A DNA stretch of 64,000 nucleotides, from the NCBI GenBank assembly GCA_945890205.1, contig CAMDCL010000002.1, positions 18,195-82,194 of the forward strand, given 5' to 3'. Positions within the stretch are counted from its first letter, which is position 1; each line of letters opens with the position of its first letter. Source of the DNA: Bifidobacterium breve (lineage in GTDB: Bacteria > Actinomycetota > Actinomycetes > Nanopelagicales > Nanopelagicaceae). The notes below the pieces were generated by a model, which saw only the letters and a program-made list of their open reading frames with translations, did not search any database and was not told the DNA's origin. Position numbers and translations under genes: made by a program. Below, piece after piece: positions 47,559-52,741 of this stretch.

Positions 47559-47574
47559 TCGAACATCTGTTCGA
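47559..47574. promoter_or_regulatory. LexA-binding SOS box
   Basis: TCGAACATCTGTTCGA; perfect TCGAAC-N4-GTTCGA actinobacterial SOS box upstream of the DUF6504-dnaE2-dinB cassette. Confidence 0.92.
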
Positions 47575-47605
47575 ATACCCACAGCTGTGAAAGGTCTACC
47601 CAGAA

Positions 47606-47887
47606 ATGTCAGCCATGCAGGTTAACCCCGCCCTCGATGTCACTATCGATGGGGCAACAACTCCTATCGAGTTCACCTATAAAGGAAAACGGTTTCGCAT
47701 CCATGCGGTGTTATCTCGTTGGTGTGAAGCGGGTGGTTGGTGGAATCGAATCAGCGATGGAAGGTATCGCCCCGATGATCAGGCACGGGCTGTCTGGAGA
47801 GTAGAGGCGGCACCTATTGGTGCGCTGACAACCTTTGAACTAGAGCGTGATGAAGTAACAGGTCAGTGGATTATTCGTAAGGTATGA
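47606..47887 (+). CDS. DUF6504-like small protein of the mutagenesis cassette
   Basis: PIEFTYKGKRFRIHAVLSRWCEAGGWWNRISDG, WRVEAAPIGALTTFELERDEVTGQWIIRKV. Stop overlaps the dnaE2 start (ATGA). Confidence 0.75.
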   Translation: MSAMQVNPALDVTIDGATTPIEFTYKGKRFRIHAVLSRWCEAGGWWNRISDGRYRPDDQARAVWRVEAAPIGALTTFELERDEVTGQWIIRKV

Positions 47888-50800
47888 GCTTTATTCATCT
47901 CAATGTTGCCAGCGGGTATTCGTTGAAATACGGAACAACCCACCCCCATGATCTAGTCCAACGTGCAGCAGAGTTTGAAATGCCAGCGTTAGCGCTAACA
48001 GATCGTGATGGGTTAGCTGGTGCCATCCGTTTTACTCAAAGTTGTGTTGATTACGGGATCGCACCCATCATCGGAGTCAATTGCGCCATTGATCTGGGGC
48101 CAACAAAATTTGGATTGGGCAAAGGTCGCATCACCTTGCTGGCACATAGTGATGGGGGATGGCGCTCGCTGTGCAGATTGATGACATCGCTAACAATGAC
48201 TAGCCAAACTCGTGTGCCAGTTCTGACCTTAGATTTTTTACAACAGTTCAGTAACTACAGCACCAATGTTTATGCCATGCATGGCCCCGAAGCACCTATC
48301 AGCGATGCGATACAAAACCATCGCTTTGATCAAGCCTTACATATCTTTAATCAAACCCGTGATCTATTTGCCAATAATGCGATTGAATGCGTTTCACACC
48401 TAGTCGCAGGCCGCGGACCCCGCTCTACCGAGCATGCAGCGCGATCTTTAATCTTTGCCCGTGACAATGATATTGATGCGGTTATCACCAACGCTGTGCG
48501 TATGAAGGATCGCACCGATGGGCCGGTGGCAGATGTTTTAGATTGTGTGCGACAACTAGTTCCATTGCATGATCGCCACATTGAACGACGCAACGCTGAA
48601 GGATTTTTGAAATCAAGTGATGAGATGATTTCTTTGGCTGCCGAAATCGCACGGGCTGCAGGAGAACGAACACCGCGTGCACTGTTAAAGACAACGCGCG
48701 AATGGGCTGAACGCTCACTGCTCTCACCACAACGAGATATCGGTTTAGGGGGAGCCCACCTGCCAGAGCCCCATGTTGTAGGCGTCAATACCGCCCAAGA
48801 GATGCGTACCTTGCTGCGTTCTCGCAGTGAAGCCGGAATCAACTGGCGCTACAACAGCAGCGATCAGATCAGCAAAGCACGTGCACGTTTAGATGATGAA
48901 CTCGCAACCGTTGCAACACTTGGTTACGAGTCCTACTTTTTAACCGTTGCAGATATTGCAGATATGGCACGGGATGCCGGAATCCGTGTTGCAGCTCGCG
49001 GCAGCGGTGCAGGCTCCTTGATCTGTCACTTACTTGGAATCTCAGGTGTAGATCCGATGCAACATGGTTTATTGATGGAGCGTTTTTGCTCTCCCTTGCG
49101 CAGAGCCTTGCCAGATATCGATATCGATGTCGAATCTGCCCGGCGGCTCGAAATTTATGACATGGTCTTTAAAAGGTATGGCGATAGCAATTGGAGATCA
49201 CCTGCCAATCAATCACGGTGCGCAGTTGTTGCAATGGTCGATACCTATCGTGCCCGCCACGCAATCCGTGATGCAGGAGCAGCCCTTGGTTTACCCGGCA
49301 TGGAGATCGATATGTTGGCCAAATCCATGCCACATGTACGTGCCCGCAATATCGCAGCAACCCTTGAATCCTTGCCTGAACTTCGAAAGATAAATACATC
49401 TACGCCATTGATGGCGGCAACAATTGAGATGGCACAACGCCTAGATGGCCTGCCACGCCACCTTGCGATGCATCCATGTGCGATTGTTTTATCAGATGGT
49501 GGTTTTCTAGATCGCGCACCATTGATGAGCAGCGCTGGTGGTTACCCAATGGTCGCCTTTGATAAGGATGATGTTGAAGCGGTTGGGTTATTAAAGCTAG
49601 ATGTCTTAGGTGTTCGGATGCAATCAACTATTGCTTACTCCATGAAAGAGATCGAACGAGTTCACAAAGAGATAGTTGATATTGATGCGGTTGCGCTAGA
49701 TGACACAGCAACTTATGAGTTAATTCAATCAACGAGAACCCTTGGAATCTTTCAGGTGGAAAGCCCAGGACAGCGCGAACTTGTTGGAAAACTCGCACCC
49801 AAAACCTTTACCGATTTAATTATTGATATCTCTCTGTTTAGACCAGGGCCGGTTAAGAGCGACATGATCACGCCATTTCTTAAGGCTCGTCATGGGTGGA
49901 GCCCAGCACAGATAATTCACCCTGATTTATATGAGATTTTGGCCCATACCGAAGGTGTTGTTGTCTTCCATGAACAGGTTATTCAGATCATCGCAACGAT
50001 GACCGGGGTTTCATTGGCAACGGCTGATGAAAAACGCAGATCGCTAGGAGACCGCGCAGGTCAACAAGAAGTGTGTGATTGGTTCTTTCCTGCAGCAACT
50101 GCCAAGGGGTATGAGCTACCAATCATTCAAGAGATCTGGGATGTGCTGCGCGCCTTTGCATCCTTTGGTTTTTGCAAAGCACATGCTGCAGCCTTTGCGC
50201 TGCCTACATATCAATCGGCTTGGCTTAAGACCCATTACCCGGCAGCCTTTCTTGCAGCTGTCTTAACCCATGATCCCGGTATGTACCCCAAGCGTTTAAT
50301 TGTTGATGAGGCCAGGCAGATGGGGATCACCATCGCACCGATTGATGTCAACGCATCTGATGCGGTGTATCGGGTTGAAGATCATGGCAACGCGATCCGT
50401 ATCGCCTTATCAACTGTTGGTGGAATTAGTGATGGGGAAGTTCAATCAATTATCGCCGGTCGTCCTTACATCGACTTAAATGATTTTGTGCGCAGATCTG
50501 GGTGCAGCACACCGGTTACTGAAAGTTTGATTCTTACAGGTGGCTTTGATTCGCTGCATGCCGATGTCAATCGACGGGATCTATTGCTTCATTTTTCTGA
50601 TTTACAAAAATCACCCAGCGCTGCCATCTCTGGCGCGCAGATGAACTTGGGGTTTGATCCACCGGCGTTGATCAGCAGTGGGTTACCTGCAATGACCGCA
50701 GCTGAAAGCGTGAAGCACGAGATCGATCGATTAGGAATTGATATGTCCCGCCATATGATCGAGTTTTACGGTCAGTTCCTTAACGCAATCGGTGCGGTTC

Positions 50801-51126
50801 GCTCTAGCGATCTGCTGAAGCAGCGATCCCAATCATCGGTGTTAGTTGCAGGGATCAAGGTAGCGATGCAGACACCACCGGTGCGTTCGGGTAAGCGTGT
50901 CATTTTCCTCACCCTTGATGATGGATATGGTTGCAGTGATTCAACATTTTTCACCGATGTCCAAGGCGAGTACGCCAATGTTTTGTATTCGACCTCGTTA
51001 CTACTTGTTCGAGGTGTCACCCGTCGCACAGGTGCCAGAGGCATCTCTATCAGGGCTACCGGGGCTTGGGATTTACGTGCCGCTTACGAAAGTTGGAGCG
51101 CTAAACAAAGTACGCTCGCAATATGA
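47884..51126 (+). CDS. dnaE2: Error-prone DNA polymerase III alpha subunit DnaE2
   Basis: C-family polymerase motifs VAARGSGAGSLICHLLGIS, LPDIDIDVES, GIFQVESPGQRELV, FRPGPVKSDMI, FGFCKAHAAAFA. 1080 aa, next to DUF6504 and an SOS box. Confidence 0.93.
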   Translation: MSFIHLNVASGYSLKYGTTHPHDLVQRAAEFEMPALALTDRDGLAGAIRFTQSCVDYGIAPIIGVNCAIDLGPTKFGLGKGRITLLAHSDGGWRSLCRLMTSLTMTSQTRVPVLTLDFLQQFSNYSTNVYAMHGPEAPISDAIQNHRFDQALHIFNQTRDLFANNAIECVSHLVAGRGPRSTEHAARSLIFARDNDIDAVITNAVRMKDRTDGPVADVLDCVRQLVPLHDRHIERRNAEGFLKSSDEMISLAAEIARAAGERTPRALLKTTREWAERSLLSPQRDIGLGGAHLPEPHVVGVNTAQEMRTLLRSRSEAGINWRYNSSDQISKARARLDDELATVATLGYESYFLTVADIADMARDAGIRVAARGSGAGSLICHLLGISGVDPMQHGLLMERFCSPLRRALPDIDIDVESARRLEIYDMVFKRYGDSNWRSPANQSRCAVVAMVDTYRARHAIRDAGAALGLPGMEIDMLAKSMPHVRARNIAATLESLPELRKINTSTPLMAATIEMAQRLDGLPRHLAMHPCAIVLSDGGFLDRAPLMSSAGGYPMVAFDKDDVEAVGLLKLDVLGVRMQSTIAYSMKEIERVHKEIVDIDAVALDDTATYELIQSTRTLGIFQVESPGQRELVGKLAPKTFTDLIIDISLFRPGPVKSDMITPFLKARHGWSPAQIIHPDLYEILAHTEGVVVFHEQVIQIIATMTGVSLATADEKRRSLGDRAGQQEVCDWFFPAATAKGYELPIIQEIWDVLRAFASFGFCKAHAAAFALPTYQSAWLKTHYPAAFLAAVLTHDPGMYPKRLIVDEARQMGITIAPIDVNASDAVYRVEDHGNAIRIALSTVGGISDGEVQSIIAGRPYIDLNDFVRRSGCSTPVTESLILTGGFDSLHADVNRRDLLLHFSDLQKSPSAAISGAQMNLGFDPPALISSGLPAMTAAESVKHEIDRLGIDMSRHMIEFYGQFLNAIGAVRSSDLLKQRSQSSVLVAGIKVAMQTPPVRSGKRVIFLTLDDGYGCSDSTFFTDVQGEYANVLYSTSLLLVRGVTRRTGARGISIRATGAWDLRAAYESWSAKQSTLAI

Positions 51127-52307
51127 GCGCAGATGAAAAGCCAACCCAGGCAACGATTCTGCATGTCGATATGGATGCCTTCTTCGCATCGGTTGCCGAA
51201 AAAGATAACCCCGAGCTAAAGGGCAAAGCGGTTGTCATCGGAATGGGTGCACGTGGAGTTGTCTCTGCAGCAAATTACGAGGCGCGCAAATTTGGTATTC
51301 ACTCTGCGATGCCGGTCGGGCAGGCACGTCGCTTAGCGCCCCATGCAATCTTCTTGCCAGTTGATATGGCTCGGTACCAAGAAGTCTCTGGTCACATTAT
51401 GGAGATCTTTGAGAGCTTTACCCCTAACGTTGAACCGGTCTCAGTTGATGAAGCCTTTCTCGATGTAACAGGTGCAAAGAAGTTGTTAGGTACGGGCCGT
51501 GAAATCGCTGCCGCAATCCGCGCCAAGGTTGAAGCACAAGAGGGGATTACATGCTCTGTTGGTATTGCACCATCAAAGTTTATTGCAAAGTTAGCATCAA
51601 CACATTGCAAACCTAATGGCATGCTTGAAATCACCAGTGATCGAATTCTTGAGTTTTTACATCCGCTACCAATATCTGCAATGTGGGGGGTAGGGCCAAA
51701 GACGGCAGAAGTGCTAGAACGCTTAGGACTTCGGACAATTGAAGATATTGCAAAGCTTCCACGTACAACATTAATCCGTGCGGTAGGAGAAGCGGCAGGT
51801 GCCACCTTGCATGAACTGTCGTGGGGTCGTGATTACCGCGATGTCGCACCACACGATGTTGAAAAAAGTATTAGCGCTGCAGAAACCTTTGCTAGAGATC
51901 TCGATAACCCTGAAGAGATTTTGCGGGAATACCTGCGTCTTTGTGAGCGCGCAACATCACGGTTGCGCGACAAGGGATTGTTTGCAAAGACGATCTCAAT
52001 CAAGGTTCGCTTTGGAGATTTCTCAACGATCAATCGTTCAAAGACTTTGCCGCTTCCGATCGATGGCACCCACGATGTATATGAAGTTGTGAAAGCCTTA
52101 TATCAAGGGCTACATATCGAGCGGGCACGTTTGCGTTTGGTGGGAGTATCCCTAGAGAGTTTGAGTGAGAGCGCTCCTGTTCAGCTGGTGTTAGGTGAGC
52201 GTGAAAAGGGGTGGCGCGAGGCGGAAACGGCAATGGATAAGGCCCGTGAGCGCTTTGGTGATGGCTCGGTGCGTCCAGCCCGCCTGATCACACCCGAAGA
52301 TGAGTAG
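51123..52307 (+). CDS. dinB: DNA polymerase IV (DinB, Y family)
   Basis: ILHVDMDAFFASV, SVDEAFLDVTGAKKL, GVGPKTAEVLERLG. Catalytic DE retained. Overlaps the dnaE2 stop. Confidence 0.94.
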   Translation: MSADEKPTQATILHVDMDAFFASVAEKDNPELKGKAVVIGMGARGVVSAANYEARKFGIHSAMPVGQARRLAPHAIFLPVDMARYQEVSGHIMEIFESFTPNVEPVSVDEAFLDVTGAKKLLGTGREIAAAIRAKVEAQEGITCSVGIAPSKFIAKLASTHCKPNGMLEITSDRILEFLHPLPISAMWGVGPKTAEVLERLGLRTIEDIAKLPRTTLIRAVGEAAGATLHELSWGRDYRDVAPHDVEKSISAAETFARDLDNPEEILREYLRLCERATSRLRDKGLFAKTISIKVRFGDFSTINRSKTLPLPIDGTHDVYEVVKALYQGLHIERARLRLVGVSLESLSESAPVQLVLGEREKGWREAETAMDKARERFGDGSVRPARLITPEDE

Positions 52308-52339: not shown

Positions 52340-52693
52340 ATGCCATTATCCGATCGTGAAAAGCGCCTCTTGGAAGAGATGGAGGCTGCTCTTTTAACAG
52401 AAGATCCACGCCTAGTTTCCGCTCTTTCAGCAAAGGGACCGGTTTCACCATCTCGCAACCGCATCGTGGTTGGCGCGGGGTTAATCCTGCTTGGCTTGGT
52501 CACCCTCTTTGGCGGGTTGATCTCACAGATGACACCTATTGGAATCCTTGGCTTTGTAATCGCTCTGGGCGGGGTCATTACAGGGATCTCATCGATCTCA
52601 CCTATGGTCCGCGGCGCTCGCAAGCCTTCATCACGGACAAATTTAAGCGCTCGCCTTGAGCAACGTTGGGATAACCGCTCCAACGAGGAGTAA
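52340..52693 (+). CDS. DUF3040 family membrane protein
   Basis: MPLSDREKRLLEEMEAALLTEDPRLVSAL and two TM segments. Typical position upstream of mraZ in Actinobacteria. Confidence 0.9.
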   Translation: MPLSDREKRLLEEMEAALLTEDPRLVSALSAKGPVSPSRNRIVVGAGLILLGLVTLFGGLISQMTPIGILGFVIALGGVITGISSISPMVRGARKPSSRTNLSARLEQRWDNRSNEE

Positions 52694-52715
52694 ATCCCCG
52701 CATAGCTCCACCTCA

Positions 52716-52741
52716 AGCCCCTCCATGTGAGGGGCTTTTTT
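52716..52741 (+). terminator. Rho-independent terminator after DUF3040 gene
   Basis: AGCCCCTC-catgt-GAGGGGCT followed by TTTTT. Confidence 0.88.

Follow-up and report, generated by a model that had tools for sequence, protein, structure and literature searches.

Gene organization of the locus

The window analysed here is a 64,000-nucleotide stretch of a 1.27-Mb assembly (82.9% complete), for which the nearest named dnaE2 records come from Candidatus Planktophila and uncultured actinobacteria, many of them freshwater. It contains a LexA (SOS) box, the 16-base palindrome TCGAACATCTGTTCGA (47559..47574), located 31 nt before the start codon of a gene for a 93-aa DUF6504 protein (47606..47887, + strand), which is followed on the same strand by dnaE2 (47884..51126) and dinB (51123..52307). 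The ORF, Pfam match and tree position of dnaE2 identify an error-prone C-family polymerase of 1080 aa from the Streptomyces-like branch of DnaE2, and those of dinB (ORF, Pfam and alignment) a 394-aa Y-family polymerase IV. Both joints, DUF6504/dnaE2 and dnaE2/dinB, are 4-nt ATGA overlaps, which bears out, to the exact coordinates, the original prediction of a perfect LexA box ahead of three overlapping genes. Two C-family polymerases are encoded in the assembly, DnaE1 on another contig and the cassette DnaE2.

A DUF3040 (SCO2097-like) gene, identified by ORF and Pfam, lies 32 nt 3' of dinB (52340..52693, + strand). Between this gene and mraZ we detected a terminator-like stem of 9 bp with a 5-nt loop and a T tail (52715..52737, + strand). 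Of 20 same-genus loci, 14 have a stem, of differing sequence, at the same DUF3040-mraZ position. The transcription unit therefore probably stops before the mraZ-rsmH division cluster, which makes DUF3040 the likely final gene of the SOS operon. DUF3040 is a conserved neighbour of dinB, whether or not dnaE2 is beside it, and is not thought to be part of the mutasome. The complete order of box, DUF6504, dnaE2, dinB, DUF3040 and mraZ is kept in all 20 same-genus loci.

LexA box and predicted SOS control

The window has a single occurrence of the box pattern TCGAACNNNNGTTCGA, where shuffling leads one to expect 0.01; across the 1.27-Mb assembly, the exact form is found only before DUF6504 and before lexA. 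The LexA encoded there has both the DNA-binding and the S24 peptidase domains, and its gene is preceded by two boxes, one exact and one with a single mismatch. A sigma-70 scan near the cassette box found no promoter. DUF6504 was matched in 78 named relatives, of which 71 had enough upstream sequence to be judged; in 70 the full 16-base pattern was present no more than 120 nt upstream, and the remaining one had the 12-base core farther up. With the gene order conserved in 20/20 loci and the box in 70/71 relatives, a chance origin of the arrangement is excluded.

Since the genome encodes LexA and a matching box precedes the cassette, the latter qualifies as a predicted member of the LexA regulon. 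It is expected to be LexA-repressed and damage-inducible, as originally proposed, a view strengthened by the boxes that LexA has before its own gene. Elsewhere in the same genome, on contig C61, a one-mismatch LexA-type box (L009:233-248) precedes a gene for the peroxide stress protein YaaA (275-850), and YaaA may belong to the SOS regulon of the source genome.

DUF6504 as a standalone ImuB-C domain

The Pfam profile of DUF6504, PF20114, matches the cassette protein with an E-value of 9e-10 and 39.1 bits, well over the gathering cut-off of 24.2. The same profile also recognizes, at residues 425-505, an ImuB of 507 aa from Shinella (28.6 bits; same cut-off) that is encoded in a plasmid imuA-imuB-dnaE2 cassette, and the matching region is the C-terminal domain of that protein. 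PF20114 gave no direct match to the C-termini of actinobacterial ImuB/ImuB2. Because the Pfam model misses actinobacterial ImuB2 directly, profile–profile comparison was used. DUF6504 aligned with the C-termini of eight actinobacterial ImuB proteins over 77 columns, reaching the end of both families (64% probability, P 6.5e-5), and the match rose to 87% (P 4.2e-6) when two proteobacterial ImuB sequences were added to the profile. All controls stayed below 1%, whether made with other segments of ImuB, by reversing the profile or by shuffling its columns (30 shuffles). A profile built from two ImuB1 sequences alone did not match DUF6504.

The AlphaFold2 model of DUF6504 is all-beta (pLDDT 75.7), and a Foldseek search of it against the PDB returned nothing significant. 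ImuB-C has been published as a beta-barrel without a close PDB relative (PMC12926913), which an all-beta model orphaned in the PDB fits. On the strength of these profile and model comparisons, we identify DUF6504 as the ImuB C-terminal domain in the form of a separate protein, and part of ImuB is thus present in the cassette. DUF6504 had been put forward as a candidate accessory factor, and this idea now gains support and a domain identity. Standalone ImuB-C has been described by Aravind et al. 2013 (PMC3765255) and by Timinskas and Venclovas (PMC6511836, PMC12926913). The term DUF6504 was not found in the literature searched, and the papers on the domain name it ImuB-C. The Pfam family thereby acquires a likely role, that of ImuB-C, which is a DnaE2-docking domain in published models.

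DnaE2 and the absence of ImuA and ImuB

The DnaE2 translation contains the catalytic motifs PDIDID and LKLDVLG. In a 53-row tree it groups with the DnaE2 proteins of all DUF6504-dnaE2-dinB trios, with an Arthrobacter plasmid pair and with the Streptomyces type, and DnaE2 proteins encoded at ImuA/ImuB loci cluster apart (SH-aLRT 100). We infer from this placement that the cassette enzyme is a DnaE2B, the label following PMC12926913.

No imuA or imuB was present in the neighbourhood of the cassette within the window. When a profile built from eight ImuB proteins of actinobacteria was run on this genome and on 17 good genomes of the same genus, its only match was the cassette DinB. An ImuA profile, likewise made from eight proteins, had no match in the 82.9% complete genome, and its matches elsewhere in the genus were RecA itself, at the coordinates of recA. 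The proposed lack of a nearby imuA' therefore extends to the genome and the genus as searched with these profiles. The genome search thus found LexA and no separate imuA'-imuB locus, both in keeping with the original prediction. No recA was found in the assembly; since it is present in 20/20 high-quality same-genus genomes, this gap is best read as assembly incompleteness.

A canonical ImuA'-ImuB-DnaE2 mutasome whose imuA and imuB lie in the missing ~17% of the assembly would suit a draft of this completeness from which recA is absent as well. However, ImuB is lacking from the 17 same-genus genomes, closed chromosomes included, and the ImuA matches are RecA. Moreover, the cassette DnaE2 is on the opposite branch from ImuA/ImuB-linked DnaE2 proteins, and ImuB-C is already supplied as DUF6504. 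We regard this reading as extremely improbable.

DinB

DinB is the only Y-family polymerase found in the 82.9% complete assembly, and exactly one Y-family gene occurs in each of two closed same-genus genomes. Residues 11-355 align with PDB polymerase IV structures. The alignment places the catalytic span from D16 to D109/E110 (51168..51452, + strand), with D16, D18 and the aromatic steric gate F21 in VDMDAFF, and D109 and E110 in SVDEAF. The Y-family partner had been said to keep its catalytic motifs, and D16, D18, D109 and E110 are indeed present by sequence. These catalytic residues were intact in all DinB proteins checked (20 from the same genus and 25 from other trios).

Two further motifs lie near the C-terminus. 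The first, QLVLG (residues 354-358; 52182..52196, + strand), was aligned as beta-clamp-binding-like, the motif class being that of PMC12926913. The second, WREAETAMDKARERFGDGSVRPARLI (residues 364-389; 52212..52289, + strand), is RecA-NT-like, a motif defined in PMC6511836; it includes RERFGDGSV and is comparable to the start of same-genus RecA, ...ALAQIERQFGKGSVMKM. The RecA-NT motif was called by alignment, as an automatic motif regex gave false matches. The tail recurs among the trio DinBs displayed, where variation is found chiefly in the clamp motif. With these features, DinB is classed as a predicted active PolY carrying RecA-NT and clamp motifs. The same RecA-NT tail is also present on dinB orthologues of genomes that lack DUF6504 or have ImuB (L195, L186 and L191). 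As the tail is shared more widely, it is by itself no proof of membership in a DnaE2 complex.

Distribution and gene-order variants

PF20114 was detected in 49 of 61 same-genus genomes, including all 20 of high quality. In wider samples it was present in 66 of 148 genomes from the class and 95 of 297 from the phylum. Among 60 loci outside the genus, 29 have DUF6504, dnaE2 and dinB in order, 13 have DUF6504-dnaE2 only (some of them cut by contig ends) and 18 have neither. By sample, the trio order is found in 25/40 class loci and 4/20 phylum loci. It spans many Actinomycetes families and is constant among the Candidatus Planktophila relatives. Being common in Actinomycetes, the arrangement is a widespread actinobacterial layout and not a peculiarity of this lineage.

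The trio is split in a sister genus of the same family (g195; L127, L128, L224 and L225), where DUF6504-dnaE2 and the SOS box are at a separate site, and dinB stays at DUF3040-mraZ with no SOS box. In other families, dinB adjoins DUF3040 with no dnaE2 next to it (L187, L189, L193, L195 and L197). The conjugative plasmid pYA7-1a of Arthrobacter sp. YA7-1 carries a DUF6504-dnaE pair without dinB (L226:5707-9240), adjoining the gene for an SOS response-associated peptidase; the pair can therefore be mobile.

These variants bear on whether DinB belongs to the complex or is merely its neighbour, the weakest step of the four-part reading, as its separability in the sister genus indicates. The core could be DUF6504 and DnaE2 only, the published DnaE2-[ImuB-C] type, with DinB an independent polymerase IV co-transcribed by virtue of an ancestral DUF3040-mraZ site. 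The persistence of dinB-DUF3040 without a neighbouring dnaE2, the box that remained with DUF6504-dnaE2 in the sister genus, and the plasmid pair all speak for it. Against it stand the dnaE2-dinB adjacency and trio order kept in so many Actinomycetes families, and the AlphaFold models of PMC12926913, which favour a PolY-containing complex. We consider an independent DinB unlikely, though by no means negligible.

Other loci depart further from the trio. L181/L222 was considered as an ImuB fused to DUF6504 and rejected, as it comprises two frames, an inactive PolY and then a separate DUF6504-like stretch scoring below the cut-off. In L222 (5104-6596; G313, another class), the inactive PolY and DUF6504-like stretch lie about 4 kb before dnaE2 with a box nearby, and the locus is reminiscent of the published DnaE2X type with its split ImuB. 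Large genomes of one family (f79; L152, L154-L157 and L160) have DUF6504-like genes, two copies in some genomes, with SOS-type boxes near; no dnaE2 or dinB was present within the stretches fetched.

HEPN gene in related operons

In 26 of the 60 sampled loci, all from the class Actinomycetes, a SAV_6107-like HEPN gene (PF18726) lies between DUF6504 and dnaE2; examples are L138:8474-8845 and L161:8079-8444. Two of these loci (L142 and L144) keep DUF6504-HEPN but have no dnaE2. The family to which the window belongs has no HEPN gene in its DUF6504-dnaE2 cassette. SAV_6107 was listed as actinobacterial in a 2013 HEPN survey, with no operon context. The literature searched held no paper combining HEPN and DnaE2 and none describing HEPN between DUF6504 and dnaE2. 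It is possible, and we suggest it tentatively, that in many Actinomycetes the HEPN protein is a further mutasome-associated subunit, for example a helical adaptor or regulator, and that Ca. Planktophila has the form without it. The HEPN gene of the related operons is a testable lead.

A predicted DnaE2B mutasome

Our preferred interpretation, to which we give a probability of roughly 70%, is that the cassette is a LexA-repressed translesion-synthesis operon encoding parts of a predicted DnaE2B-[ImuB-C]-PolY-RecA mutasome. As read from the box and the presence of LexA, DNA damage would lead to RecA filaments and LexA self-cleavage, after which DUF6504/ImuB-C, DnaE2 and DinB would be produced together by coupled translation. 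As its two motifs suggest, DinB would use QLVLG to bind the sliding clamp and the RecA-NT tail to bind RecA. DUF6504 would dock on the PHP domain of DnaE2, as ImuB-C does in published models, and help to recruit DnaE2 to the stalled primer end. DnaE2, DinB or the two jointly may then copy across the lesion with errors. RecA would substitute for ImuA, and the detached ImuB-C and the active DinB would together replace the inactive polymerase ImuB.

The original prediction that DinB is present instead of ImuA'/ImuB stands in so far as neither ImuA nor ImuB was found. It is too strong in the role given to DinB, since the predicted replacement for ImuA is RecA, and DinB is a Pol IV that can be separated from the other two genes, with its home at the DUF3040-mraZ edge. 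The gene content would also match a new, simplified mutasome in which DinB replaces ImuA'/ImuB and DUF6504 is an accessory factor of unknown function. However, the arrangement is widespread and published (PMC12926913, PMC6511836 and PMC3765255), and DUF6504 corresponds to ImuB-C, which makes that reading very improbable. The claim of a new simplification has to be withdrawn, the combination of DnaE2B, active PolY with RecA-NT and standalone ImuB-C having already been described for Actinobacteria.

If the preferred reading is correct, a streamlined freshwater lineage with genomes of ~1.3 Mb retains an operon for inducible mutagenesis, in which its sole Y-family polymerase is encoded. As a compact system, the cassette lends itself to asking if a DnaE2 mutasome truly includes an active DinB among its subunits.

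Comparison with known systems

The lexA-imuB-C-polY operon of Geobacter sulfurreducens (PMC6511836) is like the cassette in combining ImuB-C with an active PolY and in being damage-induced, but it has no DnaE2. The ImuA'-ImuB-DnaE2 mutasome of M. tuberculosis shares SOS control, DnaE2 and the ImuB-C domain; the cassette differs in having neither ImuA nor an inactive PolY, in its detached ImuB-C and in a DnaE2 of the other branch. The Streptomyces DnaE2-DinB2 operon is near in its DnaE2 branch and also has dnaE2 followed by PolY, whereas its PolY (scDinB2, an iPolY) is inactive and ImuB-C has not been described with it. The putative DnaE2B-[ImuB-C] complex of Arthrobacter alpinus (PMC12926913) has ImuB-C directly before dnaE2, as do the Arthrobacter plasmid and the sister genus, but that unit has no dinB.

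The closest counterpart is the type made up of DnaE2B, active PolY, standalone ImuB-C and RecA, which was predicted by Timinskas et al. (NAR 2019, PMC6511836; 2026, PMC12926913) and described from Actinobacteria only, with Tessaracoccus lapidicaptus as representative (PMC12926913). The cassette shares with it the standalone ImuB-C, a DnaE2 outside the ImuA/ImuB branch, an apparently active PolY with RecA-NT and the lack of ImuA and ImuB. Relative to its published description, the present case differs in its streamlined Ca. Planktophila setting, its conserved LexA box, a dinB that is the sole Y-family gene and the lack of an HEPN gene between DUF6504 and dnaE2. New as far as we searched are the equation of DUF6504 with ImuB-C via Pfam, the HEPN gene of related operons and, for Ca. 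Planktophila, the conservation of the LexA box and the end of the operon. The cassette is a clear fresh case of an already predicted actinobacterial mutasome type, not a new system.
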